From an uncultured Desulfobulbus sp. (GTDB taxonomy: Bacteria > Desulfobacterota > Desulfobulbia > Desulfobulbales > Desulfobulbaceae), in contig NZ_OY760916.1 of the NCBI RefSeq assembly GCF_963664075.1, positions 1,027,501 to 1,091,500 on the forward strand: a DNA stretch of 64,000 bases, given 5' to 3'. Both the position numbers and the translations under genes were made by a program. Under the pieces are notes generated by a model that was not told the DNA's origin, ran no database searches, and saw only the letters and a list, made by a program, of their open reading frames with translations. Shown in pieces: positions 45,322-63,702 of this stretch. Position 1 is the first letter of the stretch; the number at the start of each line of letters is the position of its first letter.

Positions 45322-45777
45322 ATGCATACCGACGCAGACCCACGCACCGCGCTCACCCAGTTCCTCCGGCAGCCGGATCTCAGCATACTGGGGGATGCTA
45401 TCCGCAGCCTGCCTCCTGCTCAGTGGCAGACCAATATGTTTTTTACCGGCGCCGCCGATAAGGAATTGCGTCGCCAAACCAAATCCTTCCCGGCCACTCT
45501 GAGAAAAGACAAAACCACCCACCCGGTCTTTCTGCTCCGCGCAAGCCCAACGGGCCATCTCCTCTGCCCCTGCTCCTCAAAAGGGCATCCACGAAAATTT
45601 CGTTTCATCGCCTCCGGTTGTGCCATGGAAATGAAGGACCAGGTCATGGATCGTGATTCCTACCTGATTGAACAGTACCCCTTCACCATCCCCCTGGACT
45701 ATCGTTTCCAGAAACAGCTACGGTTTTTTGGGCAGGTCCCTCAGACCTGCATCCGCGATATGAGGCCTCGCCCGTGA
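45322..45777 (+). CDS. Unknown protein, first gene of sigma/anti-sigma/Lon operon
   Basis: This 151-residue cytoplasmic protein has no family I can name with confidence. Its second half, THPVFLLRASPTGHLLCPCSSKGH...SGCAMEMKDQVMDRDSYLIEQYPFTIPLDYRF, is a run of short strands with a GHLLCPCSSK turn. It faintly resembles the SH3-like barrel of PemK/MazF toxins, but no catalytic residues can be assigned. A CPCSSK motif and a second Cys could bind metal. It overlaps the sigma-like gene by 4 nt, so both are probably made together. The 5' region is AT-rich; the ATG at 45322 has only a weak ggggtt tract upstream. Confidence 0.7.
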   Translation: MHTDADPRTALTQFLRQPDLSILGDAIRSLPPAQWQTNMFFTGAADKELRRQTKSFPATLRKDKTTHPVFLLRASPTGHLLCPCSSKGHPRKFRFIASGCAMEMKDQVMDRDSYLIEQYPFTIPLDYRFQKQLRFFGQVPQTCIRDMRPRP

Positions 45778-46835
45778 CTGACTTGTCTGAAAAGGCCCTC
45801 AAACCGTTTCATGATTGGCTCAACACCCCGGAAACTGTCTCCTACGTTCTTCACTATGTTGCGGTGAAAAGGCAACAGGCCTCGGCAAGTCCGACGGTCA
45901 GTGCCACAGATACAGAGGATCTCTGTCAGGATTTCACCCTCTTTCTTCTCGAGCGTTTCCTTGCCCCGGATCGGATGCAAACTGACCTCCTGGCCCTGAT
46001 CCAAAATGGCCAATTTCGGCGAATACTTGATTTGGCCTGGGGCCGCTTTTCCTGGATGCAGCGTGATCTGGAGCGCAACAAGGAGCTCAACCCGCGTGGC
46101 TACCTGTACCGTCGTCTGCGTGAAGTGCTCCGTCAACATGAGGACCGCTTTAGTGTCACCATAAGTGCCCAGGGCTATCCTCTGTATGCACCTGTTCAAC
46201 ATAAAAACGACGACTTGCCATTCTTTGCAGCCATGGACCAGTACCCAACTTCATTTAACCAGTGGCAGCCTCCGCGGGCACTGGGAGACCGTCCGGCACA
46301 GGACTATGTATTTAACGAGCAGTGGCTTCTTGGTGCCGCCGATGAATTCTGGCACCAGGTGATGCGGGAGACCGGCGTCCCGTCACGCATTGCAGTCCGC
46401 GACCTCTGCCGTTACCTGGCCTGCCATTATCCCTGGCTGAACAGGCCGGTCTTTGAGCAGGAACCGGAAGGGCGCGCACTCGATACGCCTGGCGGGGTTC
46501 GACATGCACCAGAGGAGCAGCTCCTGCTCAATACAGGCCTGCGCTCCATTGCCCCCCTGGCTGAGCAACTGGTTGCGACCTGGTCCTCCACCCAACAACA
46601 GGTCTTTGCCCTGCGCCTGGCCGACCCGCCGGTTACGCTGAAAGAAGTCGCTTCCCGGATCGGGCTGAGCGATCATAACAAGGCCCACGCGCTCTACCAG
46701 AAGGCGGTGCAGTCGTTGCGGAATTTTTCCAGCAACTGGCCTGGTTCGCCGTTGTCTGACCTGCCCGAAGAGGTGGCTCAAACATTCATTGAAGAAGTGC
46801 ATCGGCTCTGCAAAAAATCGCTGCCCTGTCCGTAA
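45774..46835 (+). CDS. Sigma-70-family-like protein (ECF-like region 2 and region 4)
   Basis: This 353-residue protein has a region-2-like helix pair near residues 46-62 (TDTEDLCQDFTLFLLERFL, matching the ECF pattern DxEDLxQ) and a following basic helix. A ~130-residue middle segment is unassigned. A clear region 4 lies at ~256-318 (APLAEQLVATWSSTQQQVFALRLADPPVTLKEVASRIGLSDHNKAHALYQKAVQSLRNF) with its helix-turn-helix. The size is larger than most ECF sigma factors because of the insertion. It overlaps the 151-residue gene by 4 nt, and the zinc-motif protein follows 29 nt later. It probably directs RNA polymerase to an unknown target promoter when freed from an inhibitor. Confidence 0.72.
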   Translation: MTDLSEKALKPFHDWLNTPETVSYVLHYVAVKRQQASASPTVSATDTEDLCQDFTLFLLERFLAPDRMQTDLLALIQNGQFRRILDLAWGRFSWMQRDLERNKELNPRGYLYRRLREVLRQHEDRFSVTISAQGYPLYAPVQHKNDDLPFFAAMDQYPTSFNQWQPPRALGDRPAQDYVFNEQWLLGAADEFWHQVMRETGVPSRIAVRDLCRYLACHYPWLNRPVFEQEPEGRALDTPGGVRHAPEEQLLLNTGLRSIAPLAEQLVATWSSTQQQVFALRLADPPVTLKEVASRIGLSDHNKAHALYQKAVQSLRNFSSNWPGSPLSDLPEEVAQTFIEEVHRLCKKSLPCP

Positions 46836-46864
46836 GAAGATATAAACACTTTTCCCCTGCAAGA

Positions 46865-47992
46865 ATGATGAAATCCTATCCACGCCACATAAGCGACCAC
46901 CCGGCCTGGCAGCAGGCATGGCGACTGCGATGCTGCCCCCCCGACAGTCTGTTGACCTCGCCGCCTTCTCCAGCTTTGTTGCAACATCTGGAGTTCTGTC
47001 CCTGGTGCCGAGAGGCCATGGCGGTTGCCGAGCATCTCCCCCCCTGTCCTCCAATGCCTGAAAATCCAGATGATTCGCACCCGCCAGCCAACAAACCGAT
47101 TCCCGGCCAACTCTATAGCCTGCGTCAGGATCTGGCGGGCTGGGGAGAAAAAGGGCGATATTACAATCCTCCCGTAGTACTGCTGCTTGCCTGTCCGGAT
47201 ACGGATGCGGTTTTAGTCTGCCAGACCTACGGCGACCCGGCTTTCGCTGGTCCCGGAGATGTCGCTCTGGGCGCCCTCTTCACAGGTTTTGCTCAACTCT
47301 GGAACCGTTACACCCTGTTGCGAACCGATCTCGACACCTACCTGGGGACTGTCGATGCCCCCATTCTGGCAACCATTGATCAGGCGGGCGAACAGGATGC
47401 GTTGCCCCTACAGCCAGGAACCCTGCTCTGGTTTTTTCGGCAGATGGAAGTCGAAACCGGCTATTTCTTCAGTCGCCGTGCTGTGGAACAGTTGATGACT
47501 GCCCACGAAGACCAAAGCCTCTCTTTCCTGGCCTCGGCAAAAATTCCTATCATTCGACAGGATCTCGACAAACTGCCCGTGCACTTTTCTGCCGATACCC
47601 TGGGCGAGATCTCCGTGCTTGAGCTGTTTTTGCACACCGAACCCGACGATCGTCTCCTGCCTCTGGCCGCAGCGGATTGCGAAACCCAGCCAGCGCTGCG
47701 TTTTAGCCTTCAGGGCGACCGCATCATTGCCGCAGAACTCCAGCAAATCTCGATTTCTTCCTTTGACTATGCCCAGGGGATTCTGACCATAAGCGGGGCA
47801 ACTGATGCCCCTTATGCTTGCAAGCAGACCTGGATTTTTGGCTGGCGAGTAGGGGGGCATTGTATAGAACCACTGCCCGAGCTGACCGGACAGGAAGGAA
47901 AATATTTCTGGGTGGCCTTTGCCCTGAGCCCCGACCAACTTCTGCCACCCTCGCAGTTGGTTGTCCGTATTCTCTCTGAGGAGGAGGAATGA
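46865..47992 (+). CDS. Putative anti-sigma-like protein with HxxxCxxC zinc motif and barrel-like domain
   Basis: This is a 375-residue cytoplasmic protein. Near the N-terminus, C23/C24 precede LLQHLEFCPWCREAM, where His41-x3-Cys45-x2-Cys48 is the motif of zinc-binding anti-sigma (zf-HC2/ZAS) domains. After a Pro-rich linker (~55-80), residues ~80-135 (IPGQLYSLRQDL...RYYNPPVVLLLACPDTDAVLVC) resemble the PemK/MazF-like SH3 barrel opening PGxIxx...RPVLVL. The remainder (~140-375) is beta-rich and unassigned. The gene follows the sigma-like gene and overlaps the Lon-like gene by 4 nt. I infer that it holds the sigma factor inactive and may be cleaved by the protease. The barrel match is tentative. 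Confidence 0.62.
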   Translation: MMKSYPRHISDHPAWQQAWRLRCCPPDSLLTSPPSPALLQHLEFCPWCREAMAVAEHLPPCPPMPENPDDSHPPANKPIPGQLYSLRQDLAGWGEKGRYYNPPVVLLLACPDTDAVLVCQTYGDPAFAGPGDVALGALFTGFAQLWNRYTLLRTDLDTYLGTVDAPILATIDQAGEQDALPLQPGTLLWFFRQMEVETGYFFSRRAVEQLMTAHEDQSLSFLASAKIPIIRQDLDKLPVHFSADTLGEISVLELFLHTEPDDRLLPLAAADCETQPALRFSLQGDRIIAAELQQISISSFDYAQGILTISGATDAPYACKQTWIFGWRVGGHCIEPLPELTGQEGKYFWVAFALSPDQLLPPSQLVVRILSEEEE

Positions 47993-50073
47993 GCAGTGCC
48001 AGTGATGAACATTGGCATGAACTGTTTCTGCACCTGCAGCGCGCGCCCCTGCTTGCCGAGCGCCGACTTTGCTGGCCATGCCCGGTTGGTTTGCCCTCGT
48101 CTTCAATGCTGCACTCGCTCCAGCACCTCTCCGAGCAACATAACCTGCATGATCTGCTGGCCCGCCACCTCCTCTCCAGTCTCGCTTTAGCAAAACACCT
48201 GCAACCCGAGCTAGCGCAACTGCCCCAGAGTGCACGGGCGATTTTATCTACATATACAAATGAGCAGCTTCAGCACATTCATTGGTGCTGTCTGCCAGTG
48301 CTGACCCGGCAAGGAACGGACGCACGGATTCTCTGGATGCTTCTGGGGCGGGTTTCGGGGGGATCCGGTCTCCACTTTATCGGTGATCCACAACCGGCAA
48401 CTCCATGTCTGCAGGCAGTGGAGACAGTACTGGAAGTAATGGGTTCGCCTGGTCAGGTAGAGCATGGATATCTGGCCCTCCTGCTCCAGCATCCTGCCGG
48501 TCCGCAGCTGACCGGCGGATCCCTGGCTCTGCCGCTGGCCCTGGGGCTGCGCCTGCTGGATCAGGGGAAGCCTTGGCCGTTGCATGTGTATGCAAGCGGT
48601 TGTCTTGCGCCCGGCGGTCAAGTCACTGCCGTTGCCGGTGAGACCGACAAATACGCGTTGGTGGCCGGTCACGTGCGCCTGTTGCTCTTTCCTGAAACCG
48701 GCCTGCCGGCAAGGGAAGCCGATCCTCGGATTGTTCGTTGTTCCAGCCTGGAGCAGGCCGAATTTTCCCTTGATTGCCTGCTGGAGGAGGGAGATCCGGA
48801 AAAAATCTATCAGTATCGAGCCTGCCTGGCCAACCCTCGTCTCTTCCTTGATCAGTTGACAGCCTTGCCCCTGGGGTTACTTCATTCTTCCAGCGGATGC
48901 GAGCAGTTCGACCGGATACGGCAGGACAGGCACGCATTGTTGCCTGTGCTTGCCCGTGCTTTATCGGGTTGCTGTGATGTTCCGGAGCGGGCCGCACTGC
49001 TGGCCGACACCTTCAGTCGCGAAGAAATCGACCACATCGGCCGCAGTGATCATGAAGACGCCCCGGCCGCCCATCGTTGGTGCGTGGCCCGCATCGCCTG
49101 TGCCAATCGCATGGGGGCGGTGGGGGAGGGGCAGCAATGGGTGCAGCTGGCGTGTGCTCTCGATGCGGCCATGGATGTTGATAAGCGGGTAGATTTTGTC
49201 AACCATGCCTTTGTCACCACCCGTTTTAACCGCTACCGCTTTCTTGCCGATTCCCCGCCTGAGTTTTCCCGGTATCTGGAGATCGAACAACGAAGATACG
49301 AGATCGACCAGCGGGAAAATCGCAATCTCGGGGCCATGTACGGTACCCTGGCGCAGAATTACGCTTTTTGCGGATCCGAGTTCCAGCAGCAGTTTGACGT
49401 GTGCATTGAACGGGCCGAAGCCGCCTTTGGCCGGAAGTACCGGCGAGAACAACTGCGTCTTCTGGCATACCGGGTTTACCGACAGCTGGATGAGGGGAAC
49501 ACATCTCAGGCAGCTGTATCGCTTAACAGGTATCTCAACCTGGCCGACGACCGTTCTCCGGAGGAATGGATAGAGGTGCTCCCGGCGCTTTGGCAGCGTC
49601 CCACGGAACATGCCCCCTTTCAGACCGCTCTGATCTGTCGTCTGCTTGCAGAGCAGACCCAGGCTGGATCCCTGCAGCCAAAACCTGGTTGGTGCAGTGC
49701 TTTGGCTGCCGTGGTTCCGAAACGTCTGTCCCACCCCTGGCAACTGACCGCCTATAACCTCGGCAGGCTCTGTATTGCCGCCGGGCTTCCCGGTGAAGGG
49801 CAAACCTGGCTTCATCGCTCCGCTGCTGCCTGCAGGGGGGGAGGCCCGACCATGCTCCCCATGACTTTGCTGCCGCTGGCCGCACTTTATGCAGCCACAC
49901 CCGGTGACACGGGCCTGCTTGCGTCCTGCGGTGAGATCGTTGCAGCGATGCGGAGGGATTGTTTTCTTGAATTAGCCCATTTTCAGATGATTCTGGACGC
50001 ATCTTCCCCAAGGCGGGTTTTGGAATTGGTATCGGCAGAGTCTGGGCGGTTTTTTCCTTTCAGTTATCGGTAA
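47989..50073 (+). CDS. Lon-type (S16) Ser-Lys protease domain with large helical C-terminus, no AAA+
   Basis: The 694-residue protein has a Lon proteolytic-domain match at ~115-238. RVSGGSGLHFIGDPQPATPCLQAVETVLEV aligns with the first Lon strands; the rest fits E. coli Lon without gaps. Ser178 (LTGGSLAL) and Lys221 (VAGETDKYALVAG) are 43 residues apart, as are Ser679 and Lys722 of E. coli Lon, and the Gly residues between match. No Walker motifs exist, so it is ATP-independent. Residues ~1-110 and ~270-694 are helical, partly TPR-like, with no SAVED or CARF domain recognised. It overlaps the anti-sigma-like gene by 4 nt and ends 204 nt before csx20. Substrate, most plausibly the upstream gene product, is inferred. 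Confidence 0.75.
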   Translation: MSSASDEHWHELFLHLQRAPLLAERRLCWPCPVGLPSSSMLHSLQHLSEQHNLHDLLARHLLSSLALAKHLQPELAQLPQSARAILSTYTNEQLQHIHWCCLPVLTRQGTDARILWMLLGRVSGGSGLHFIGDPQPATPCLQAVETVLEVMGSPGQVEHGYLALLLQHPAGPQLTGGSLALPLALGLRLLDQGKPWPLHVYASGCLAPGGQVTAVAGETDKYALVAGHVRLLLFPETGLPAREADPRIVRCSSLEQAEFSLDCLLEEGDPEKIYQYRACLANPRLFLDQLTALPLGLLHSSSGCEQFDRIRQDRHALLPVLARALSGCCDVPERAALLADTFSREEIDHIGRSDHEDAPAAHRWCVARIACANRMGAVGEGQQWVQLACALDAAMDVDKRVDFVNHAFVTTRFNRYRFLADSPPEFSRYLEIEQRRYEIDQRENRNLGAMYGTLAQNYAFCGSEFQQQFDVCIERAEAAFGRKYRREQLRLLAYRVYRQLDEGNTSQAAVSLNRYLNLADDRSPEEWIEVLPALWQRPTEHAPFQTALICRLLAEQTQAGSLQPKPGWCSALAAVVPKRLSHPWQLTAYNLGRLCIAAGLPGEGQTWLHRSAAACRGGGPTMLPMTLLPLAALYAATPGDTGLLASCGEIVAAMRRDCFLELAHFQMILDASSPRRVLELVSAESGRFFPFSYR

Positions 50074-50277
50074 CGAAATTCACAGAGGGCGTGCTGCATC
50101 ACCGGGATGTCATCTCGACCCAAGGGAGAGATCTCGTCTTTTCCAGCTGAGTATTGGCGATAATCAAAAAAAAATGAACAATTTTTCAAAAAAAGAAAAT
50201 CTTGGCCGTAAGAGGAAAGAGAACAACGAGTGATGTACGCTCAATGCACCTGATACCAGCCAAGGATTAGACCAACC

Positions 50278-50667
50278 ATGAAGAAACTGTTTTTGATATT
50301 CAACCATGTCTTTACCCTCAGTCAGCAGGATAACGCCCGCCACGAGCTGGGAGTCGGCACCATCGTCGAACTGCCGCTCGAGCTGCGCGAGCGCTGGGCC
50401 AACATCCCCCCCGAGGAACCCGGGCTCTGGCTCTGGCTGCAGCCGCTCTGCGACTGGCTAGCCGACCATGCCCACCCCGGGGATTATGTCCTGGTGCAGG
50501 GCGATTTCGGTGCCTGTTATCTGCTGGTTCGCTTTGCCCGCAAGCACGGCCTGATCCCGGTGTATTCCACCACCGAGCGGCACGCCCACGAAGAACGGCT
50601 CTCCGATGGCCGGGTGAAACTGACCCACACCTTTGAGCATGTGCGGTTCCGGCGGTATGGGGAGTGA
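50278..50667 (+). CDS. csx20: CRISPR-associated Csx20 (putative ring nuclease)
   Basis: This 129-residue protein matches Csx20: MKKLFLIFNHVFTLSQQDNARHELGV, IVELPLELRERWANIPPE, the GDYVLVQGDFGACYLLVRFA block and IPVYSTTERHAHEE with FEHVRFRRYG at the end. Csx20 proteins are CARF-like enzymes that degrade cyclic oligoadenylate second messengers and so switch off type III signalling. Its presence with two CARF-HEPN nucleases and a GGDD-bearing Cas10 implies an active cyclic-oligoadenylate pathway. The ATG at 50278 has a distant AAGGA tract. It opens the CRISPR operon, ~34 nt before cas6. Confidence 0.88.
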   Translation: MKKLFLIFNHVFTLSQQDNARHELGVGTIVELPLELRERWANIPPEEPGLWLWLQPLCDWLADHAHPGDYVLVQGDFGACYLLVRFARKHGLIPVYSTTERHAHEERLSDGRVKLTHTFEHVRFRRYGE

Positions 50668-50701: not shown

Positions 50702-51664
50702 ATGAGCATACTTTGCCAAGACCTTAAAATTCACTGTCGCTGGGTGACGGAAGCCAGGCTACCCGATTATGCGGGATCTGCCCTGAGGGGGGCATTCGGC
50801 TGGGCGCTCAAAAAAAGCAGTTGTGCCCTTCGCAGGCAGGACTGTACAGCCTGTCTTTTACGGCAGCGATGCGCCTATGCCTGGATATTTGAAACAGAAC
50901 GGTATACCGACGCCAACTCCCGCCCCGTCAATGTTCGTCCCCATCCTTTTGTTGTCCGTCCCGGTATCGGTTGTGCCGGGTCTGGAAAGGAAGGGGAGGC
51001 TTGGGAATTCTCGATGCTGCTCATCGGCGAGGGGGGCGAATACCTCCCGCACATCGTCTACAGTATCAGGCTCATGGGAGAATCGGGTATCGGCTCCAGT
51101 AAACGGAACGGTCTTGGCCGCTTTCAGCTTGAACGGATCGTTGCTGGTACAAATGTAATATACGATGGCTCCAGTGGCATGCTGCTGAACAACAACCCGG
51201 TAGCGGAACTTTGTATGGGAGAACAGGGGCAGAGGAGGGAAACGAAACGAATCCGTATCCATTTCCACACGCCGCTGCGGTTGAAGTATAACAACGGCCT
51301 GCTCCGTGACCTCCCTTTTCATGTTCTCATTCGGGCGTGCCTGCGACGTATTTCGTCTTTGGAAGAGGTTTATGGTCAGGGCGAACCCAAACTCGATTAC
51401 ATAGGACTGATTAATCGGGCGGAACGGGTACAGACCGTGACCTCGACCCTGCGTTGGCAAGAGATGCTGAGGTACAGCAACCGCCAAAAGCAGAAGACTT
51501 CGCTCAGTGGCCTTGTTGGCGTTGTCGAATATCGTGGAGATCTGACGGAATACCTGAATCTGCTTGAATACTGTGGCTTGGTCCATATCGGCAAACAGAC
51601 CGTGTTCGGCCTAGGGTGGATGAGCGTACAGCGGCTTGACGAAGACAACAGTATTGACAACTGA
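50702..51664 (+). CDS. cas6: Cas6 pre-crRNA endoribonuclease (RAMP superfamily)
   Basis: This 320-residue RAMP protein has the N-terminal segment LPDYAGSALRGAFGWALK, a Cys cluster (CTACLLRQRCAYAWIFE) and the C-terminal Gly-rich YRGDLTEYLNLLEYCGLVHIGKQTVFGLGW loop. These are typical of the Cas6 family that accompanies type III systems. It would cut transcripts of array 2, leaving an ATTGAGAC 5' handle. The Cys cluster may hold zinc. The ATG at 50702 follows GAGGAGAG. It precedes the CARF-HEPN gene by 20 nt. Catalytic residues are not assignable by eye. Confidence 0.88.
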   Translation: MSILCQDLKIHCRWVTEARLPDYAGSALRGAFGWALKKSSCALRRQDCTACLLRQRCAYAWIFETERYTDANSRPVNVRPHPFVVRPGIGCAGSGKEGEAWEFSMLLIGEGGEYLPHIVYSIRLMGESGIGSSKRNGLGRFQLERIVAGTNVIYDGSSGMLLNNNPVAELCMGEQGQRRETKRIRIHFHTPLRLKYNNGLLRDLPFHVLIRACLRRISSLEEVYGQGEPKLDYIGLINRAERVQTVTSTLRWQEMLRYSNRQKQKTSLSGLVGVVEYRGDLTEYLNLLEYCGLVHIGKQTVFGLGWMSVQRLDEDNSIDN

Positions 51665-51684: not shown

Positions 51685-53127
51685 ATGGCAAGGATATTCA
51701 TCAGTTTTCTCGGTTTGGGAAACCCGCGTACCGAATTCGGCTATGACCTGGCAAAATACAACTGGCCGGGAAAATGCGAGGATGAAGTGGAGGTGTATTT
51801 CGCCCAGACGGCCATTCTGAAATTTTTGGAAGAGAGCCGTGGTATCGATGGGGCGGTGGATAGGGTGGTCTTTCTTTGTACGGAACAGTCACGGAAGAGG
51901 CTTCCGCTTTTGGAAGCAGAAATGAAAAAATATCTGGCCGTTCCACCCAACTATCTTGTACCCAGGCCTTATATACCAACGGATATGAAGGCCGAGAATC
52001 AATGGGGTTGGTTCGAGCAGCTCCTGGGGATAATCGACCATAACGATAGCCTCATTCTTGATTTCACCCACGGTATGCGTCCGGTGCCGATCGTCTTTTC
52101 GAGTGCCATCGGCTTTCTGCGGCGGGCTAAGAACATCACGCTCAGCCACGCCCTCTACGCCTGGTACGACCAGAATGACAAAGACCGTGTTCACCCCATC
52201 GTCGATATGCGTGGTTTCTATGTGATAAACGACTGGACGGAATCGGTCTCGCGGTTGACTGACGACGCCGATGTCAGGCAACTTGCACAACTGGCCGGAG
52301 ACACCGAGATCGAACCGCTCAAGCCTCTTGCCGATCCAGGCCTGGTGCGCGCCTTCCAGGAGATGACCGACTGTATCCGCAATGTGGACGTGAACAACAT
52401 CACCGCGAAAGTCAGCGGCACCCTAAAGATGGTACAGGCGGCAAGGGAAAATGCCTCGGGTTCCGCCAAGGTGATGCTTGATCTGGTTTGGGAGAAGTTC
52501 AGTACCCTGGCCTCCAACCACCCGCTCAGCGGCAGGTATGACGCCCCTTATTTTGAAAGCCAACTGCGGATTATAGAGGTGCTGCTTGAACACCGGTTGT
52601 TCATGCAGGCCTTTACCGCCATGCGGGAGATGGTTGGGTCGTTGGGAATGGTCGGAGTGACCGGGAAATATCGTAAAAATATGAGAAGTAGTAAGGGAAA
52701 AAAATACCGGCGAATTGCAGACGTTTTTATCAATATGTTGCAGTTTCCCGAAACAAAATGGGATTTTTCCAACCAGGCGCAAATCGACAAAGAAATGCTC
52801 AAGGACTGGTACCGAACCTTGCAAGAAACGGGAATCGAACAGCAGCTCAGAAAAATTGTCACTCCCATGGTTGCAACCCGTAACGGTTTTGACCACGCTT
52901 GGACCTCAAAGACGTCGGCTCACGATAATATTCAAGAAGAAGGACAAGCATATCTTATAACCCTGAAGACGGTTGTTGACCTAATGGCCAATGAAAAATT
53001 GTTTGAACAGACAGCAAGGCAGTCACATAGAATTTATTTCAAAATATTAAATAAATGTAAACTTTCAGCGTTGCGTATCTTTACCTGGATTCGAGCATGT
53101 ACTTATTCTGGGCCCCCCAGAGGGTGA
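51685..53127 (+). CDS. CARF-HEPN ribonuclease, TM1812/Csx1-like (first copy)
   Basis: This 480-residue protein begins with a Rossmann-like CARF domain (MARIFISFLGLGNPRTEFGYDLAKY) carrying the family signature LDFTHGMRPVPIV (Asp126 to Gly130). A helical linker and a C-terminal HEPN domain follow, with the active-site motif R399-NGFD-H404 (Rx4H). Family members are activated by cyclic oligoadenylate made by Cas10 and then degrade RNA non-specifically, giving abortive or dormancy-type immunity. It lies between cas6 and cas10. The related gene at 59788 has a different sequence, so the locus has two such effectors. Ligand size (cA4 or cA6) cannot be told. Confidence 0.88.
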   Translation: MARIFISFLGLGNPRTEFGYDLAKYNWPGKCEDEVEVYFAQTAILKFLEESRGIDGAVDRVVFLCTEQSRKRLPLLEAEMKKYLAVPPNYLVPRPYIPTDMKAENQWGWFEQLLGIIDHNDSLILDFTHGMRPVPIVFSSAIGFLRRAKNITLSHALYAWYDQNDKDRVHPIVDMRGFYVINDWTESVSRLTDDADVRQLAQLAGDTEIEPLKPLADPGLVRAFQEMTDCIRNVDVNNITAKVSGTLKMVQAARENASGSAKVMLDLVWEKFSTLASNHPLSGRYDAPYFESQLRIIEVLLEHRLFMQAFTAMREMVGSLGMVGVTGKYRKNMRSSKGKKYRRIADVFINMLQFPETKWDFSNQAQIDKEMLKDWYRTLQETGIEQQLRKIVTPMVATRNGFDHAWTSKTSAHDNIQEEGQAYLITLKTVVDLMANEKLFEQTARQSHRIYFKILNKCKLSALRIFTWIRACTYSGPPRG

Positions 53128-53176: not shown

Positions 53177-55738
53177 ATGGATCAAGCTATTCTCCAATAT
53201 TTGACAGTCGGTGCTTTCCTGCATGATCTCGGAAAATTTGCTGAACGAGCCTATGCTGTGGAAGTTGGCGACAAAGACGAGGTGCAGCAGGTCTATCATT
53301 ATGCCCATGCCTATCACACGGAACTCGCCTTGTTGTCTCTTTTTCCAAAAGAAAGACTGGAGTCGGAGGCTGCCGGACTGCCGGGGTTGACAATTCTCAA
53401 CCTTGCCAGTCGCCACCATAACCCCCGTTCAGATTTTGAATTCATTGTGGCGGAAGCAGATCGAATTGCTTCAGGGCATGACCGGGCTATAGGTGATGCT
53501 GTTTCTCAATTTGATACAGGCAGCCGTGAGAAAAAGAGCCGTACGCCTATGATTTCCGTGTTGTCACGGGTTCGGCTCGAAAATTTGAAGAATGAGCCAG
53601 TGTATGACTGGCGTTACCGCCTGAAAAAAGCATCGGTTATGTATTCCGATGCATTCAAGGAGATTTATCCAGTTCCGAAGGACGGCTACACAGCCGACGA
53701 GGTTCAAGGTGACTATAAAGAACATTGGCGGCAATTTAGTGAAGCGATAAAGCCTGGGGCGGGATTTGGACTGGATATTTTCGACCATTTCCCAACATTG
53801 GTGGCAATATGCCGAGAATATCAATGGTGTCTCGCTGCCACAACCAGACTGCAGGATCTGGCGGACACATCCCTCTTTGATCATCAGAAGATCAGCGCGG
53901 CCCTAGCGGCCTGTATGTATATCTACCACGCGGACCAAAACCATGAACTGGCCTCGGATGGGATAACCCGAAAAGGTATCATCGCGAACCGAGGCCTGAA
54001 AAAATATCTGCTCTTCTGTGGTGATATCAGTGGAATACAAAATTTCATATATTCCATTTCGTCAAAAGGCGCCTTTCGCACCCTCAAGGGGAAATCGTTT
54101 TTCATCCAGTTGTTGGCCGAAATCATTGCCCAGGAATTTATAGATTCCCTCGGTCTGACGGTTACCAATATTCTGTACGCCAGCGGCGGCAAATTCTATT
54201 TATTGCTGCCAAACACCAATTCGATAAAGACCATTATAAGCAAACTCGCAGATGATATTAACCGGGATTTTTTCACGGACTATGCTGGCAATCTGTTTAT
54301 CCGAACAGGCTATAGCGAACTTTCGGGAGATGATTTGACCGGTCAAGGCACAAGCCTTTACCAAGCATGGGACGATCTAGCCCGCTCGCTTGTCTTTGAA
54401 GACCGCAACCGTTATTCACAGCTGGCGATTGACAATTACGAACAAATTTTTGGGATTAATCTGGACGGTGCAAGAGCGACTTGCCCGGTATGCAGCGCGA
54501 CTATACAAGGTGAGACAAATCATATCTGCCGTTCCTGTAGGGAAATGGAGGAAATTGGTCGTTTCCTTCCCAAGGCCAGGTACCTTATCGTCAGTAAAGA
54601 TAGCCATGCAATGGGTTCCGACGGCTACCTCATGCGTATTCGCGACTATTGCATCTGGTTCTCCAGCGACAAGCCAGCCAAAATTTCAAGAAAACCGGCA
54701 ATGATTTTGGTCCTGAATAACGGTGATTTCAGTGCTATTCCGAAACAATTTCCCTACCCAAACGTAGTTAACAGCATGCCCTTTACCGTTGGCTCGAATG
54801 TGAGTTTTGATCGTCAGACCTTTGACGAGATTGCAGAACAGGCAAGAGGCGTTAGGCGCCTTGGGATTCTCCGTATGGATGTGGACAATCTTGGCAAAAT
54901 ATTCAGCCAGGGGCTGGAGCATTACAAGCATGAGCAGATAAAAGAGAGTGAACGGTTCCATTCACTTGGCCGTATTACCACTATGAGTTGGCAACTCTCG
55001 ACATTTTTTGGAGCGGTCCTGCCAAACCTCATCAGCAGTGATCCTGACTGGGGACAACGGGCAACCGTGGTCTATTCGGGAGGGGACGATCTGTTTTTAC
55101 TGGGGGCATGGGATACCCTCCCCCGCATTTCCTTGAAAATCGTAGATGAATTTGCCGAGTTCACCTGTCGTAATATGTCATTTTCCTTGTCTGGTGGACT
55201 GGTGCTCACCGGCGGTAAATTCCCGATTTATAAAAGCGCACAGATGGCTGGCGAAGCAGAAGAGGCGGCTAAACACAATAATACCACGTTTACCGGCACC
55301 AAAAATATGGTGGGGAAAAATTCGTTCACCTTTCTCTCCACCCCTATGCATTGGGCGGAGTTCAGAGAAATTGCCGCTCTACAGGCCGGTCTCAAGTACA
55401 TCCTGCAAGACAAGAAAAATCATGCCCTGCTTAGTCGACTGCGGGTCATAAGCGCTTCATGGGAGGACAGCAAAAACGGCCTGAGGCAAACCATGACCAT
55501 GCCCGAGGTGGAGAAAAGACTGTCGGCGGAAAAATGGCGTTGGCGGATGGTGTATTCTCTGGCCCGTTTTGTTGAAGGCCACGCAAGGCTTCAAGAAACA
55601 ATCAATGCTCTCCAGGTAATGACTCTCAACCCGGTCGCAGGTACGGATAGGCAGGGGATAGCCCTGCTTGGCGTACTGGCTCGATGGTGTGAGTTGGAAA
55701 TTCGAAATCAAAAAACGGGGGAATCGTATGTTGGATGA
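53177..55738 (+). CDS. cas10: Cas10/Csm1, type III-A signature subunit with HD and GGDD
   Basis: Cas10 is the large subunit of the Csm complex; on target RNA binding it makes cyclic oligoadenylates and cuts ssDNA. This 853-residue protein has an HD motif at the N-terminus (GAFLHDLGKFAERA, His16-Asp17), a Palm 1 region (FCGDISGIQNFIYSISSKGAF), a zinc finger (CPVCSATIQGETNHICRSC) and the cyclase motif GGDD (635-638) in Palm 2. Both catalytic sites look intact. ATG at 53177 has AAGGAAG upstream. It overlaps csm2 by 11 nt. With csm2-csm5 downstream, subtype III-A is secure. Confidence 0.96.
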   Translation: MDQAILQYLTVGAFLHDLGKFAERAYAVEVGDKDEVQQVYHYAHAYHTELALLSLFPKERLESEAAGLPGLTILNLASRHHNPRSDFEFIVAEADRIASGHDRAIGDAVSQFDTGSREKKSRTPMISVLSRVRLENLKNEPVYDWRYRLKKASVMYSDAFKEIYPVPKDGYTADEVQGDYKEHWRQFSEAIKPGAGFGLDIFDHFPTLVAICREYQWCLAATTRLQDLADTSLFDHQKISAALAACMYIYHADQNHELASDGITRKGIIANRGLKKYLLFCGDISGIQNFIYSISSKGAFRTLKGKSFFIQLLAEIIAQEFIDSLGLTVTNILYASGGKFYLLLPNTNSIKTIISKLADDINRDFFTDYAGNLFIRTGYSELSGDDLTGQGTSLYQAWDDLARSLVFEDRNRYSQLAIDNYEQIFGINLDGARATCPVCSATIQGETNHICRSCREMEEIGRFLPKARYLIVSKDSHAMGSDGYLMRIRDYCIWFSSDKPAKISRKPAMILVLNNGDFSAIPKQFPYPNVVNSMPFTVGSNVSFDRQTFDEIAEQARGVRRLGILRMDVDNLGKIFSQGLEHYKHEQIKESERFHSLGRITTMSWQLSTFFGAVLPNLISSDPDWGQRATVVYSGGDDLFLLGAWDTLPRISLKIVDEFAEFTCRNMSFSLSGGLVLTGGKFPIYKSAQMAGEAEEAAKHNNTTFTGTKNMVGKNSFTFLSTPMHWAEFREIAALQAGLKYILQDKKNHALLSRLRVISASWEDSKNGLRQTMTMPEVEKRLSAEKWRWRMVYSLARFVEGHARLQETINALQVMTLNPVAGTDRQGIALLGVLARWCELEIRNQKTGESYVG

Positions 55739-56245: not shown

Positions 56246-57037
56246 ATGAGTGACGAAAAAAGATTGCAGCTGGATAGGAAACTCTTCATCCAAGGGGAAA
56301 TAGAGGTGCTCACCGGTCTGCATATCGGTGGCTCTTCCCTGGGGCTCGCCATTGGTGGCGCCGACAAGGTCGTTATCCGCAATCCCATCACCAACTTGCC
56401 GTATATTCCTGGGTCGTCGCTGAAAGGTAAAATGCGTTCGCTTTTGGAAAAAGCCCATGGATTGGTCGAAATATCCGAGAGAGAAGATGGACAGGGAAAA
56501 AAAATATGGGTGGGATCGCTTTGCCAGAAACCGCAAGAAGATGTTGTGCAGCTTTTCGGCCTTGCCGCCGACCAGACCAACTTCAGCCCTGATTTTGCTC
56601 CAACCAGATTGATGGTGCGGGATGCCACGCTGTTGAATGAGCAGGAATTGGCCAATGCGGAAAACACGGATATGTATTGCACTGAAATCAAAACCGAGGT
56701 GTCCATCGATCGTCTGACTTCAGCCGCCAATCCCAGGCAGTTCGAACGTGTGCCGGCAGGTGCACGTTTTAAACTTGATCTTGTTCTTGATCTGTACAAC
56801 GTCGATGCGAAAGAGGCACGGCAGGAAAGATTTGTTTCCTTAGTGAATCAGGCTCTTTGTCTGGTTGAAGACGATTATATCGGTGGGCAGGGGACCAGAG
56901 GTTACGGACAGGTCAAATTCAAGATTAACTCGGTCATGGAACGAACCGCCGACGACTACCGTAGTGGGGATCTCACAGGGCGAACATCAGCCTATGAGAA
57001 AGAATTTGTTTCATTCATTCCTAAACCCGAGGCATGA
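56246..57037 (+). CDS. csm3: Csm3, backbone Cas7-type RAMP nuclease
   Basis: This 263-residue protein forms the filament backbone of the Csm complex and cuts bound target RNA every 6 nt. The sequence ITNLPYIPGSSLKGKMRSLLE is the Csm3 hallmark. GLHIGGSSLGLAIGGADKVVIRNP aligns with the catalytic loop, and Asp40 occupies the place of Asp33 in S. thermophilus Csm3, so the target-RNA cleavage site is kept. YIGGQGTRGYGQVKFKI is the Gly-rich loop. Twelve nt separate it from csm2; its stop overlaps the region before csm4 by a near junction. Confidence 0.96.
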   Translation: MSDEKRLQLDRKLFIQGEIEVLTGLHIGGSSLGLAIGGADKVVIRNPITNLPYIPGSSLKGKMRSLLEKAHGLVEISEREDGQGKKIWVGSLCQKPQEDVVQLFGLAADQTNFSPDFAPTRLMVRDATLLNEQELANAENTDMYCTEIKTEVSIDRLTSAANPRQFERVPAGARFKLDLVLDLYNVDAKEARQERFVSLVNQALCLVEDDYIGGQGTRGYGQVKFKINSVMERTADDYRSGDLTGRTSAYEKEFVSFIPKPEA

Positions 57038-57038: not shown

Positions 57039-58043
57039 ATGCGTATCGCCTATCATCTATTTTTTTACCAGCCGGTTCATTTCGGTCTTGAGGGGATTGG
57101 CCAGGAAAATATCGAACAGACTGTACGTTCCGACACGCTCTGGGGCGCAATCATCCAGAAGTGGATTCTGTTGTATGCGGATGATCCTTCCGAACTGTGC
57201 CGGAACATGCCCTTTACCCTCAGTTCCTGCTTCCCGCTGGTTAGCGGACAACGTTACTTTCCGGTTCCTCTTGGCGCACTTGACAGGCTGATGGATCTCG
57301 CAGCCATGGGAAAAATTGCTGCAGGTCGCATCACGGTCAAGGATATAAAAAAAATCCGCTATATCGCGGAGTCCCTGCTGGCCGATATCCTTGATGGTCA
57401 ACCGATTGAAGATAAAATCAGTGCGGATAATGTATTGCCTCGAATAAAGGAAGGGCAACAGCAGCCAGATGAAAAGGATATTTTTACCAGGCAAGAACAG
57501 CGGCCAAGGCTACGGACCAATCAACTCGCCGGTGGCGTTGATGCAGAGGGGTTCTTTTACTGCACGGACCAATTCTTTGCCCGTGAATCCGGTCTCTTTT
57601 TCCTTGCGGAATTTACCGAGCGCCAAACACAGCATAAATTTGAGGCAGCCCTGCGCCTTCTCGGCGATTCCGGCTTGGGAGCGGACCGTTCCGTTGGCAG
57701 GGGATGCTTCACTTTCAGCCGTGAATCCGTTCATTTTCCCCAAACAAAGAACAGAGGGCGTCAGCTTCTGCTTTCCCTTTATCATCCGTTGCCAGAGGAG
57801 GTGAACAGGGGCGTCATGGCAAAAGGGGCAAGTGCATATTCACTCATTCGTCGTTATGGGCATGGCGGCTCGACATTAGTGAGTCGTTTTCGCAGGGCGG
57901 ATTGCTGGATGCTCTCCGAAGGCAGTATCCTTCCTTTCGCTCCTGTAGGTCATTCCCCAGTTGTACTGAAGGCAGATGCACAGATACCCCATGATATATA
58001 CCGAAATGGCCGAGCCTTTTGTCTCGCCATGGGAGGAGTATAA
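57039..58043 (+). CDS. csm4: Csm4, Cas5-type RAMP subunit
   Basis: This 334-residue RAMP protein begins MRIAYHLFFYQPVHFGLEGIGQENIEQTVRSDTLWGAI, the strand-plus-helix start common in Csm4, and has LGDSGLGADRSVGRGCFTF, the Gly-rich loop. Csm4 caps the crRNA 5' handle and bridges Cas10 to the Csm3 filament. The start is ATG at 57039, just after the csm3 stop (57035-57037); an upstream in-frame ATG at 56865 is inside csm3. An ATG at 57034 is in another frame. Its stop overlaps the csm5 ATG (TAATG). Confidence 0.95.
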   Translation: MRIAYHLFFYQPVHFGLEGIGQENIEQTVRSDTLWGAIIQKWILLYADDPSELCRNMPFTLSSCFPLVSGQRYFPVPLGALDRLMDLAAMGKIAAGRITVKDIKKIRYIAESLLADILDGQPIEDKISADNVLPRIKEGQQQPDEKDIFTRQEQRPRLRTNQLAGGVDAEGFFYCTDQFFARESGLFFLAEFTERQTQHKFEAALRLLGDSGLGADRSVGRGCFTFSRESVHFPQTKNRGRQLLLSLYHPLPEEVNRGVMAKGASAYSLIRRYGHGGSTLVSRFRRADCWMLSEGSILPFAPVGHSPVVLKADAQIPHDIYRNGRAFCLAMGGV

Positions 58044-59782
58044 TGGGTACCGAAACTCGGAGTATCCGATCTGTTTATCAATGTGAACTGACGACTCTCA
58101 CCCCGGTTCATATCGGTTCGGGAGACAAGTATCTCAGGAATTTTGATTTTCTTTATCAAAATAATAAGGTGAGTATTTTTGACCGGAGGAAACTTTTTAG
58201 CCTGATCGAGCAGGGTGGGGTAAAATTGATCACGTCCTATACCTTGGCCATTGAAAACGACACCCTCGAACAGTGGTTTACTGAAAATCACATTAAAATT
58301 CAGGATATCCTTGTCCATACATTCATAGCGAAAAAACCACCAAAAGATATCAGCATTCAGCAGCGTGACGGGCAGGGTAACCCTTATATACCGGGATCTT
58401 CCTTGAAAGGAGCTATTCGAACGGCAGTGCTGGCAAAACTTTCCCTGGAAGATGAAAGGAAAACTGTAGATGCTTACCTTCAAAACCTAAAAAAAAGACG
58501 TAAAATCGATCCGAAAATTGCCGACCAGGATATAACGCAAAAGTTTCTGGGGCGTGATGCCAAACAGAGTTTCATGCGCAGCCTGACAGTTGGCGATTTC
58601 CGTTTTCCGTTAAGCAGTGTCGGGGTTCAGCAGGTTTGGCTTGGCCGATTGACGGGTGAAGAGGAGTTTAAGAATAAATTTCCGGTATCCCCAATCAGCA
58701 TAGAGCAGCTGAAAAGAGAGGAAAAAGTGCTCGGCCAGGTATCATTTGATGATTTTTTAGGCATGGAAGCAACAGAAGGCAAAGGCAGCTCTTATTTTAA
58801 TTTTCCGCATATGTTATCCCTCTCCTGGCTTCTAGAGGCAATGCGTGAAAAAACCGTGAAAACCATAGCTTCCGAACTTGAGTTTCTCAAAGATAAAAGC
58901 GGCAATACAATCAAGGGATTACAGAATTTTTACCATCAACTACGGACGAGTTGTGAGCAGTTGGCAACGGATGAGGCAGTTGTCCAACTGGGGTGGGGCA
59001 GCGGTTGGCGCGGCATGACGGGCCAGTTGTTGGAGCCTGAGGATTTGACAACTGAGCTTCGCAAGCAGCTGAAGCTTGCCCCCAATTATATGGAATTTCC
59101 TTTCCCAAAGAGTCGACGGTCAACAGAAATACATAATCAAACCATGCCTATGGGGTGGGTAAAACTGAAGTTTATCCCAAAGGCTGAAATCATTCGGCGG
59201 CAGAAACAGGAAAGAGCGGAACAGGAGGCCTTAGAGATAGCCAGGCAGGAAGGTTGGAGAAAATTTCTGGAAGCCATTCAATCTGCTGAAGTGAATTGGG
59301 GTTATTTCGACACCCATATTCTCAACTACCAAAGTAGAAAAGAATGGCAACAATTTGAAAATGTAGCGGATTGGCAGGCAAGAAAAGATGTTGCCCAGTC
59401 AGCCAAAAATTTAGCTTGTCAAATCCGGGAGTCTAATCTTCAGAAATGGGATACGCAACGGGATGAACAGTTACAGTCTTGGCTTGCAGTCTCTGGAGTA
59501 AATTGGGAATTAAGCAGTAATAATGACACCACCTCGTCCTCAGAATCAGAGCAGCAACTCATTCAACAGATGCAAGTCTATTCCGACTGGAACCAGTTTA
59601 AAATCAAACCCCCTGATTTAGTAGGGATGCCGTTAAAGGCACTTCAAGCACTTCAAGCTGTCTTTTTTAAACAGGGGTGGCACAAGAAACCACCTAAAAA
59701 GAAAGCCAAACAGGCCCAGGTGGAAAAATACGAGGCGTGGCAGAAAATCCAGCAGCGGGTCAGAGATCTGGGAAATAACTGA
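58043..59782 (+). CDS. csm5: Csm5, Cas7-type RAMP subunit with long C-terminal extension
   Basis: Csm5 ends the Csm filament at the crRNA 3' side and helps maturation. This protein shows VYQCELTTLTPVHIGSGDKY, the typical start, and GNPYIPGSSLKGAIRTAVL, the RAMP core. At 579 residues it is longer than most Csm5 (about 350-450). Residues after ~375 form a charged, Gln/Glu/Lys-rich, coiled-coil-like extension (EIIRRQKQERAEQEALEIARQEG) with a TSSSESEQQ linker, then a basic KKPPKKKAKQAQVEKYEAWQ tail. ATG at 58043 follows GGAGGAG and overlaps csm4. The tail's role is unknown. Confidence 0.92.
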   Translation: MGTETRSIRSVYQCELTTLTPVHIGSGDKYLRNFDFLYQNNKVSIFDRRKLFSLIEQGGVKLITSYTLAIENDTLEQWFTENHIKIQDILVHTFIAKKPPKDISIQQRDGQGNPYIPGSSLKGAIRTAVLAKLSLEDERKTVDAYLQNLKKRRKIDPKIADQDITQKFLGRDAKQSFMRSLTVGDFRFPLSSVGVQQVWLGRLTGEEEFKNKFPVSPISIEQLKREEKVLGQVSFDDFLGMEATEGKGSSYFNFPHMLSLSWLLEAMREKTVKTIASELEFLKDKSGNTIKGLQNFYHQLRTSCEQLATDEAVVQLGWGSGWRGMTGQLLEPEDLTTELRKQLKLAPNYMEFPFPKSRRSTEIHNQTMPMGWVKLKFIPKAEIIRRQKQERAEQEALEIARQEGWRKFLEAIQSAEVNWGYFDTHILNYQSRKEWQQFENVADWQARKDVAQSAKNLACQIRESNLQKWDTQRDEQLQSWLAVSGVNWELSSNNDTTSSSESEQQLIQQMQVYSDWNQFKIKPPDLVGMPLKALQALQAVFFKQGWHKKPPKKKAKQAQVEKYEAWQKIQQRVRDLGNN

Positions 59783-59787: not shown

Positions 59788-61029
59788 ATGGCCCATAAAC
59801 TCATCAGCTTTCTCGGCAAAGGACGCAAAGGCGATAGCGGGTACCGTCGGACCCGCTACCATTTTAAGAACAGTGGTCGCGAGTATCATACTCCGTTTTT
59901 CGGCCAGGCATTGCTGGCGGAGCTGGGCCATGAAACCCCGATCGACCACTTTATTCTCCTTGGCACCGCTGCTTCGATCTGGGATGTCCTGTTTGAAGAA
60001 CCGTTGGGGCTCTCCGAGCTGTTGTTGCCTTTGATTGATCGGGTGGATACGCAAACCGTGGATGATGCACTCTTGCAGGAGATCGAGCCTATTATCGAGG
60101 CGGATTTTGTCCGCCGTAAGCTGGCCAAGAAAGTCTCCTTGCGCACCATCCCCATGGGGTGCGATCTTGAGGAACAGGTGGCCCTGCTGCAATGCATGGC
60201 CCAATTTGCCGAACCCGGCGATACGTTCAGCATGGACGTTACCCACGGGTTTCGCAGCCTGCCCATGCTTGGCCTGACCTGCGCCATGCTGCTGCAGCAG
60301 CTTCAGGGAGTGGAGATCCTGGGGTTGTACTATGGGGCCCTGGAAATGGCCGATGCGGACAACCGGACCCCGGTGGTGGAGTTGACCGGTCTGCTCCGGA
60401 TAACCCAGTGGCTAGGGGCTTTGAGCGCCTTCCACTCCAGCGGCGATTATGGGTTGTTCAGCCATCTGTTGGATGATAAAGAATCGGCGGTCCACCTTGC
60501 ACAGGCAGGGTTTCTTGAAAAGACCATGAAAATTAGCGAGGCCAGAAGCCATGTGCAAAGCGCTCGAAGGAAATTTGCCGAACTGGCGGATGCGGATCCT
60601 CTCTTTGCCCTGTTTCACGACCGGCTTGTTCAGCTGACAAACTGGAGCGATGAACCGACCTATGCCAGGCGTCAGTTGGCCGCTGCTGAAAACGCCCGTC
60701 GTCACAGAGATTACGTGCGGGCATCTTCACTGGCCATCGAAGCGCAAGTCAGCAGCGAGGTCGGAAAAAATGGTAACCCGACCAATTTCAAGGACAGGCA
60801 GGGGGCAAAGGAAAAACTCAATGCTGCATGCAGAATGAGCCGAAAACAATCATCACCAGATGTCGCCACCTATGATGAATTGAATATTCTCCGTAACTCC
60901 TTGGTGCATGGGACGACCCCCACCCGTAACGATTACGGCCAACAGAGTACTCTCAAAGAGAGGGGGAAACTGGAGAGACGGTTGGACGAGCTGCTCCTCT
61001 TGCTCCATGCTCACATGATGTCCCCGTAA
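59788..61029 (+). CDS. CARF-HEPN ribonuclease, TM1812 family (second copy)
   Basis: The 413-residue protein starts MAHKLISFLGKGRKGDSGYRRTRYHF, typical of TM1812-type Csx effectors. It carries the CARF signature SMDVTHGFRSLPMLG (Asp150-THG) and ends in a HEPN domain with R369-NSLV-H374 (Rx4H) in ILRNSLVHG. It should be a ribonuclease activated by cyclic oligoadenylate. Sequence identity with the protein at 51685 is low by eye beyond the motifs, so this is not a recent duplication. It starts 6 nt after csm5 and is the last protein gene before array 2. Confidence 0.92.
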   Translation: MAHKLISFLGKGRKGDSGYRRTRYHFKNSGREYHTPFFGQALLAELGHETPIDHFILLGTAASIWDVLFEEPLGLSELLLPLIDRVDTQTVDDALLQEIEPIIEADFVRRKLAKKVSLRTIPMGCDLEEQVALLQCMAQFAEPGDTFSMDVTHGFRSLPMLGLTCAMLLQQLQGVEILGLYYGALEMADADNRTPVVELTGLLRITQWLGALSAFHSSGDYGLFSHLLDDKESAVHLAQAGFLEKTMKISEARSHVQSARRKFAELADADPLFALFHDRLVQLTNWSDEPTYARRQLAAAENARRHRDYVRASSLAIEAQVSSEVGKNGNPTNFKDRQGAKEKLNAACRMSRKQSSPDVATYDELNILRNSLVHGTTPTRNDYGQQSTLKERGKLERRLDELLLLLHAHMMSP

Positions 61030-61403
61030 AAGATCCGGCCTTGGAGCTCCTTGAATAATGGCTGGGAGGATGGAGTGGTGGATATGATCTTGCTTGCCTC
61101 CAGCTTGTTCACACCGGGCGTGCTGTTTTGGACGCTGGAGCAACGCCTCGCAAAATCAGCATCTCATTATTGTGTCGATTTTGCAGCTGTTTAGCTTAGT
61201 TGTCTGTTGCTTCGCGAGTGTCTTTTCGATGTTTGGAGCGGCAAGGAGATGCTCGAATCTGTTTTTATTTTGTATTATAAGGAGGTTATGATGGTTTTAT
61301 CAGGGCTGGACAGCCCTTTGAAATTTCCCGGACGCCGTTTTGGGGGAGGTGCTCGAATTTGCCTGTGTAACACCTTGTTAACCCTAGTGAATTTAGAGTA
61401 AGG
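61030..61403 (+). promoter_or_regulatory. Putative leader of CRISPR array 2
   Basis: This is a 374-base stretch between the second CARF-HEPN gene and the first repeat of array 2. The array decays at the far (62.6-kb) side, so this end is the leader. It is AT-rich towards the array (tgtaacaccttgttaaccct). No confident promoter boxes or ORF were found; small frames here are not supported. Confidence 0.5.
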
Positions 61404-62611
61404 GTTGGAAGGAATGCCCCGATTAGAGGGGATTGAGACAATTTCATGTGCCATTATAAAACCTCCAATTTTTTGTTGGAAGGAATGCCCCGATTAGAGG
61501 GGATTGAGACTCTATCGGTTCCCCTTCAAGGAAGTACTCAACTTTAGCGTTGGAAGGAATGCCCCGATTAGAGGGGATTGAGACATCACTGCTGCAATGT
61601 CGAGCCAATGTTGTGGTTTAGTTGGAAGGAATGCCCCGATTAGAGGGGATTGAGACTTATAATTATTTGGTGAAGGTGTATGCTTTGGTAGGTTTAGTTG
61701 GAAGGAATGCCCCGATTAGAGGGGATTGAGACGCTATAGATGTTATCCCCGCTTGATATATCTATATCGGTTGGAAGGAATGCCCCGATTAGAGGGGATT
61801 GAGACTCTTTTAATGATTTTTCCCTGTTGTGGATTTTTTTTCGTTGGAAGGAATGCCCCGATTAGAGGGGATTGAGACTCATCTTCACACTCTTTCAGGA
61901 AATTCTCAACATCTGTTGGAAGGAATGCCCCGATTAGAGGGGATTGAGACTAACTTGCATGGGTTGCAAGTCGTTTAAAATTTACGGTTGGAAGGAATGC
62001 CCCGATTAGAGGGGATTGAGACGCAATAACGAATCCCGAGTCAACCCCAAGGAGACGCAGTTGGAAGGAATGCCCCGATTAGAGGGGATTGAGACATTAA
62101 AGGTTGCTCCTGTGCCATTAACCCATATATCGTTGGAAGGAATGCCCCGATTAGAGGGGATTGAGACTTCTCAGGCTGGGGAACGGTCGCCACGCCTGAA
62201 ATGACCGGTTGGAAGGAATGCCCCGATTAGAGGGGATTGAGACATTTTTTGGGAAATTATCCGACTGAAATAAAACGTTCGCGTTGGAAGGAATGCCCCG
62301 ATTAGAGGGGATTGAGACCTCGTTGTCTCAGATATGGCCATGCCCAATCTCACCGTTGGAAGGAATGCCCCGATTAGAGGGGATTGAGACAAACGTGGGT
62401 TTGACCTTTTCCCGGTAATGACATTGTGGGTTGGAAGGAATGCCCCGATTAGAGGGGATTGAGACTAAATCTCAACTGCTGCCGCAACCTTTACGTTTTT
62501 GTTGGAAGGAATGCCCCGATTAGAGGGGATTGAGACCAGATCGAACACCTTGTAGGTGCAGTATTCAGCGTGCCAGTTGGAAGGAATGCCCCGATTAGAG
62601 GGGATTGTGTT
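61404..62611 (+). CRISPR. CRISPR array 2, type III-A associated, 17 repeats / 16 spacers
   Basis: The 36-nt repeat begins GTTGGAAGGAATGCCCCGAT and ends TAGAGGGGATTGAGAC, with a CCCC...GGGG hairpin and an 8-nt ATTGAGAC handle expected from Cas6 cleavage. First repeat 61404-61439; last intact 62501-62536; the 17th, at 62576, loses its 3' end after 32 nt (attg then tgttttg). Spacers are 35-39 nt and show no duplicates by eye. The repeat differs from the I-C repeat of array 1. No cas1/cas2 lies with this locus. Orientation puts the leader at the csm side. Confidence 0.97.
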
Positions 62612-62793: not shown

Positions 62794-62897
62794 TCTGAGG
62801 TCAAGGAAAGAGTAGTGGTACGGGGGGCTGAGCGTTGTTTTTTGCCCACCGTGAAATCGACATCTTGCAAGCAACCGCTGTACTGTTTGCTCATTTG

Positions 62898-63315: not shown

Positions 63316-63387
63316 GGGATTGAGTTGTTTCAAACGGTTTCAATCCGTTTTTATTGATCACTCAACACCGAGTTATTTGCTTGTTTT

Positions 63388-63626: not shown

Positions 63627-63702
63627 TTGTATTGATCCGATTGTAAGAAATTTTCTTTTTCTCGCACCTACTTGACCTCGTGTATCTGAATTGGAGTGTG
63701 CA

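Follow-up and report, generated by a model that had tools for sequence, protein, structure and literature searches.

The four genes at positions 45322 to 50073 of the window, a stretch of 64,000 nucleotides from an uncultured Desulfobulbus sp. (contig NZ_OY760916.1, forward strand, 1,027,501 to 1,091,500), form a cassette which we think rather likely to represent a second kind of Calp-like proteolytic sigma switch, that is, one related in design to the CalpL/T/S system of type III CRISPR loci, but without its SAVED domain and with a different sensor. The original prediction, made from the letters of the window, had proposed an operon distinct from CalpL/T/S, in which a Lon-type protease, a zinc anti-sigma-like protein and a sigma factor couple Csm signalling to transcription. 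Its core has held: the operon is distinct, lacks SAVED, carries a zinc anti-sigma motif and a bigger protease and is linked to type III loci. Several corrections were necessary, leaving the interpretation as a whole partly supported. The four genes are as follows.

P1, 45322..45777, + strand: 151 amino acids, first gene of the cassette; candidate MazF/PemK-like protein, as far as its sequence suggests
SIG, 45774..46835, + strand: 353 amino acids, GTG start; sigma-like, region 4 supported, region 2 weak
ZAS, 46865..47992, + strand: 375 amino acids; N-terminal zinc anti-sigma-like motif, MazF-like barrel, helices and C-terminal beta-sandwich
LON, 47989..50073, + strand: 694 amino acids; helical start, Lon/S16-like domain and helical C-terminal part ending in FPFSYR

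P1 and SIG as well as ZAS and LON overlap by 4 nucleotides, and 29 nucleotides lie between the stop of SIG and ZAS, so the open reading frame (ORF) coordinates agree with the overlapping or near-abutting genes originally described. A sigma-70 -10-like TATGATA was seen by eye at most about 45 nucleotides 5' of P1 (45280-45322) in the window and in two other loci (L041 and L042; L and G numbers denote our loci and genomes). None of the four proteins passes the cut-offs of Pfam or NCBIfam, and PADLOC-DB 2.0.0 gives no match at E <= 1.

The predicted S16 protease domain of LON is confirmed at several levels. A profile of 17 members matches solved Lon protease domains, with 1xhk as the best (E 2.4e-14), its match to CalpL being weaker (E 1.5e-4); neither Ser178 nor Lys221 varies in these 17 or in 21 aligned members; and a Foldseek search with the AlphaFold2 model, which was built from the window sequence and 20 relatives (mean predicted local distance difference test, pLDDT, 91.6; predicted template modelling score, pTM, 0.82), returned Lon proteolytic domains at the top, with Lon-type domains of Lon, RadA and ComM among the best 50 rows. 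The model consists of a helical start, a Lon-like domain at approximately 98-265 and helices only from approximately 266 to 694. It contains no SAVED- or CARF-like alpha/beta sensor, and at E <= 1e-6 SAVED was found in 13 of the 395 phylum genomes, none of which is among the 20 that carry LON (the own genome of the window and 19 others), in line with the claim that the protease has no SAVED domain. Among 21 LON sequences 19 positions are invariant, 15 of them in the helical part (429 residues) and four in the Lon domain (168 residues), counting the incomplete row of L046, which stops at a contig end and has no true C-terminus. The conserved core of the helical part comprises GTxAQNxxFCG, R490, Y494, D501, R551, H582, H664 and the tail FPFxYR, which is present in 29 of 31 distinct loci, the others being L047 (FPFSHR) and the truncated L046. 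L035 and L038, whose C-terminal half is different, were left out of this alignment but count towards the 20 LON genomes in the Fisher test given below, and L024, a near copy of L023, was excluded from the alignments of all four proteins. Homology of LON to Csx29 was considered and rejected, no Csx29 chain being among the best 60 profile matches.

In ZAS, C24, H41 and C45 are invariant among 16 members and C48 is nearly so; the motif H41xxxC45xxC48 with its upstream C24 has what we take to be the pattern of a zinc anti-sigma factor, as had been predicted. Of 33 distinct loci, 25 have HxxxCxxC in the protein adjacent to LON on its upstream side (before removal of six duplicates, 29 of 39 rows), the misses including genes cut by contig ends and also L027, L048 and L029, and the Pfam family zf-HC2 matches one of the 16 members only (E 0.07). 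The model of ZAS, folded from an alignment without L047, has a mean pLDDT of 83.9 and a pTM of 0.56, for which reason the arrangement of its domains is uncertain; N-terminal helices are followed by a beta barrel at approximately 82-162, further helices and a C-terminal beta-sandwich at approximately 274-372, with weakly ordered gaps at 67-73, 216-218 and 268-271. With the barrel, Foldseek gave a best E of 5.3e-5, and the best 50 rows were all labelled MazF, endoribonuclease or MoxT, the latter two presumably being MazF-type as well. This MazF-like domain had been overlooked by the original prediction, and ZAS is therefore more CalpT-like than was then seen.

Regarding SIG, the prediction of sigma-like helices stands for region 4, which is supported by a match to the sigma factor FliA (E 9.9e-5) and by Sigma70_r4, to which 10 of 14 members give a match at E <= 0.5, the best at 3e-5, and is weak for region 2; the profile was made without one overlong ORF (L036_11649), and L126 and L128, which are in the wrong frame, carry no weight in the region 4 result. 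P1 is possibly MazF-like, to judge from its sequence. Its HP and CPC motifs are conserved among members, of which 14 gave no Pfam match over the cut-off, and a weak, not significant hhalign comparison with PemK (P 0.011-0.015) lays HP...CPC(S/T) of P1 on RP...PIT(S) of PemK; for the PemK profile, 30 loci were fetched, 14 translated and 12 aligned, L065 and L066 being dropped for apparently wrong frames. A single family comprising both P1 and ZAS was also considered, and hhalign of their alignments gave no support for it.

Relatives of LON occur in 20 of the 395 phylum genomes, the own genome included, and the four genes recur together: of the loci in the 19 other genomes, all have LON, 16 have SIG, 16 have ZAS and 14 have P1. 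A contig scan, which used a single peptide pattern only, found 20 LON loci, all titled as Deltaproteobacteria of the sulfate-reducer type, six of which duplicate loci of the phylum search; the nearest relative there is in Desulfobulbus elongatus (53%). Cas10 (E <= 1e-10) is present in 119 of the 395 genomes, namely in 16 of the 20 with LON as compared to 103 of the 375 without it (Fisher p 3.2e-6), and in 11 genomes both genes share a contig at distances of 4.8 to 33 kb, a nearness expected by chance at 0.2 to 3% per genome. When the window is excluded, six duplicates are removed and same-contig Cas10 and RAMP distances are included, cas/csx genes or an array accompany the window-type LON in 21 of 31 fetched loci, and of the 20 distinct loci whose contig exceeds 12 kb, 19 have type III genes or an array on it, the sole exception being L026 (14.8 kb). 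At certain loci the evidence is slender, consisting of Csx1 alone in L028 and of an array alone in L057. Orthologues thus lie mainly near CRISPR loci rather than distant from them, and a Lon fold is present; of the sigma regions, only region 4 is supported. According to PADLOC models the neighbouring Cas10 is of type III-A in L044 and L045, III-B in L041 and III-C in L048, and GGDD was found in 17 of 18 Cas10s (13 same-contig ORFs of L114-L125, the window, L041, L044 and L045), a count standing apart from Cas10s on other contigs (G074, G103, G117, G184, G316 and extra copies).

The upstream partners of LON seem to be exchanged among loci. In L022, L032, L047, L050 and L052 LON has different partners and HxxxCxxC again occurs in an upstream protein, preceded by weak sigma-like matches in L032, L047 and L050 and by none in L052. 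Different upstream partners were seen altogether in L022/L049, L027, L032/L054, L047, L050 and L052, and L022 also has a 713-residue protein with a weak DUF3800 match.

In the window, the cassette is followed by a type III-A locus, in which the csx20 gene and the two CARF-HEPN genes noted in the original prediction were all recovered:

Csx20, 50278..50667, + strand: NF040559, E 4e-44
Cas6, 50702..51664, + strand: PF10040, E 8.4e-17; also PADLOC
Csx1-type CARF-HEPN protein, first, 51685..53127, + strand: PADLOC CARF_HEPN, E 1.5e-149
Cas10/Csm1, 53177..55738, + strand: TIGR02578, E 1.8e-169; GGDD at residue 635
RAMP protein, Csm3 by position, 56246..57037, + strand: PF03787, E 1.5e-18 at G000:C1:1083797-1084417
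Csm5, 58019..59782, + strand: TIGR01899, E 3.5e-27
Csx1-type CARF-HEPN protein, second, 59788..61029, + strand: PADLOC CARF_HEPN, E 5.5e-106; TIGR02221
CRISPR array, 61392..62611, no strand assigned: 3' of the type III genes, 17 repeat copies, the final one degenerate

Csx20 belongs to a family reported, in the accessible part of the source, as a ring nuclease of cyclic tetra-adenylate (cA4; PMC12409355). A second CRISPR array at 2812-4536 has a different repeat (GTCGCCCC...ATTGAAAC) in at least 26 copies. Directly after the type III array sits a repeat region (62886-63627), which shares with 28092-28502 a 252-nucleotide repeat family of three copies (62% and 92% to the reference) as well as 75-nucleotide and 32-nucleotide repeats. 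Upstream of csx20 (50180-50222), a short motif GGCCGTAAGAGGAAAG (50204-50219) was noticed by eye, with similar ones 5' of csx20 in L041 and L042; it was dropped as a candidate, the long pattern giving no matches in the window and the short one six where 2.42 were expected; apart from the original site none of these is exact, so that no second exact copy exists there.

Drawing on CalpL/T/S (PMC11417357, PMC12751052) and CASP (PMC10028731), as far as the accessible parts of these articles describe them, we infer by analogy that the cassette probably operates as a chain of events leading from foreign RNA to transcription. In the resting cell, the N-terminal zinc domain of ZAS would keep SIG inactive. 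Foreign RNA encountered by the type III complex would prompt Cas10 to make a cyclic oligoadenylate, probably cA4 because of the Csx1 and Csx20 proteins encoded next door, and this signal, either directly or via a partner, would reach the helical C-terminal part of LON and switch on the Ser-Lys protease. LON may then cut ZAS in one of the weakly ordered linkers (67-73, 216-218 or 268-271), and the freed SIG would redirect RNA polymerase. The signal, the substrate and the regulon of the cassette, its sensing part in LON and its coupling to Csm signalling are predictions.

Several observations weigh against this reading. The binding of SIG by ZAS and the cleavage of ZAS remain predicted, no cyclic-nucleotide fold of a known type is seen in the models of LON or ZAS, and the density of invariant positions in LON (3.5% in the helical part, 2.4% in the Lon domain) is a modest excess only. 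Region 2 is resembled in one of 14 SIG members (E 0.057). SIG, ZAS and P1 gave no significant hhalign match to their Calp counterparts, each represented by a profile of three sequences; the comparison is blunt here, since the PemK profile also missed the CalpT-like proteins (P 0.15). In G233 and G255, which carry a window-type LON on contigs of 5.8 and 8.6 kb, Cas10 gave no match at E <= 1e-3, and a sister version of the cassette has been found beside curli genes, as discussed below. Finally, the III-C Cas10 beside the LON of L048 is without GGDD, and this locus could therefore not use the cyclase of its own Cas10, which speaks against a diffusible cyclic oligoadenylate.

The latter case leads to a different view of activation, in which the helical part of LON would dock on the type III complex, as Csx29 does on Cas7-11 of type III-E, instead of responding to a diffusible nucleotide. 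The combination of a protease with helical repeats does recall the TPR-CHAT protein Csx29, as presented in the accessible part of PMC10028731. However, window-type LONs are found beside III-A, III-B and III-C Cas10s and would have to dock on different complexes, and Csx29 is absent from the 60 best LON profile matches, so we hold docking to be rather unlikely. A diffusible cyclic oligoadenylate is favoured over it because Cas10s of type III-A and III-B with GGDD as well as Csx1 and Csx20 are near.

It is also conceivable, although improbable in our opinion, that RNA cleavage is the main output, proteolysis releasing a MazF-like RNase (P1 or the ZAS barrel) and SIG regulating nothing except the cassette. 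The MazF-like fold in ZAS and the weak PemK-like profile of P1 would suit such a function, but the match of P1 to PemK falls short of significance, five of the 19 loci yielded no P1, and an RNase activity of either protein is putative, at the level of fold and profile.

The LON of the sister version mentioned above was found in three of 20 genomes searched from the family of G172 and G282 (these two and G430, the last being 71% complete). In G172 and G282 the protein retains Ser and Lys, by eye, and its C-terminal half is a different one, in which GTxAQNxxFCG and FPFxYR are missing; P1, SIG and ZAS are present in both. A strong CsgG match lies about 4.4 kb from this LON in all three genomes, with CsgF between the two genes in G282. 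The sites are L035:2656-4371 and 11710-12363, L038:13149-15626 and contig C541 of G430, and a LuxR/GerE-type regulator follows the cassette in L035. G282 has no Cas10 match; those of G172 (2.3e-6 being the best E, with one match passing the family cut-off) are taken as GGDEF cross-hits, since the E. coli control matches at the same threshold and not at 1e-10; and G430, the one of the three covered by the RAMP search, has no RAMP match. The switch is therefore not confined to CRISPR, which corrects the original prediction. That the cassette might be a general envelope or stress switch merely located in defence islands, as the nearness to csgG in three out of three genomes could suggest, is nevertheless very improbable, given the different C-terminal half of the curli version, read in two genomes, and the type III or array evidence for 19 of 20 window-type loci on contigs longer than 12 kb. 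Returning to the proteolytic sigma switch, the C-terminal half of LON differs in the curli sister and is therefore a candidate for the listening part. Tentatively, one might go further and regard the helical part as a new sensor, neither CARF nor SAVED, which would bind the type III messenger via its conserved core and drive transcriptional immunity, the same sigma/anti-sigma/Lon core having been re-wired to curli control by exchange of this part; we consider this possible at most.

Comparison with CalpL/T/S can be made within the phylum. Three of the 13 genomes with SAVED (G028, G100 and G327) encode by cas10 a SAVED protein of 490-502 residues, which the LON profile matches as well. The three genes before it code for 147-150, 232-234 and 272-277 residues; in G327 one ORF of 133 residues stands between the Lon-SAVED gene and cas10. 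By size and order, these loci fit CalpL, CalpT and CalpS. They share the order P1-SIG-ZAS-LON with the cassette, and the Lon domain of LON aligns with the three CalpL-type proteases (hhalign E 4.6e-7, 72 columns). Common to CalpL/T/S and the cassette are a Lon-type protease, a MazF-like anti-sigma candidate and a sigma-like gene beside cas10; the accessible part of PMC9704534 likens the structure of the 23-kDa CalpT fragment to that of MazF. The cassette differs in that LON has a long helical C-terminal part instead of SAVED, ZAS has a zinc motif which was not seen N-terminally in the three CalpT-like proteins, and SIG, with 353 residues, is larger than its counterpart of 232-234. CalpL/T/S is further characterised by activation through cA4 and by a sigma factor of the ECF type, and SIG has a supported region 4 but a weak region 2. 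Of the differences from CalpL/T/S originally listed, the zinc motif and the larger protease hold, whereas the extra gene may be no difference, because the three Lon-SAVED loci likewise open with a small gene (147-150 residues; P1 has 151). This gene is conserved (L106:6700-7152, L107:6310-6753, L108:13184-13630) and gave no Pfam match in the one member scanned. With zinc anti-sigma factors of the zf-HC2/RskA type ZAS has in common HxxxCxxC, the upstream Cys and an adjacent sigma-like gene, but in ZAS the same chain also holds a MazF-like barrel and a beta-sandwich.

In the literature searched, supplements, bioRxiv and most subscription papers being outside its scope, nothing was found on a Lon protease whose C-terminal part is helical and whose gene accompanies those of a sigma factor and a zinc anti-sigma factor, an earlier table entry in such sources being possible; the accessible parts of two surveys (PMC10910872, PMC12669027) do not name the cassette. 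Two CRISPR-linked circuits leading from a protease to a sigma factor were found there, CalpL/T/S and type III-E CASP. A further circuit, with the gene order of CalpL/T/S and without its sensor, would show that sigma switches have been recruited repeatedly by type III immunity and would suggest that the type III signal can be sensed in a new manner. The curli-linked sister, with the protease kept and the C-terminal half changed, offers a natural control as to which part listens to CRISPR. CASP, which according to the accessible part of PMC10028731 comprises Cas7-11, Csx29, Csx30, Csx31 and CASP-sigma, resembles the cassette in combining a CRISPR-linked protease, a sigma-factor inhibitor, a sigma factor and a further small conserved gene. 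The protease of the cassette, however, is a Lon and not a CHAT protease, and its neighbour is a multi-subunit type III system with Cas10, of the Cas10/Csm type in the window, instead of Cas7-11.

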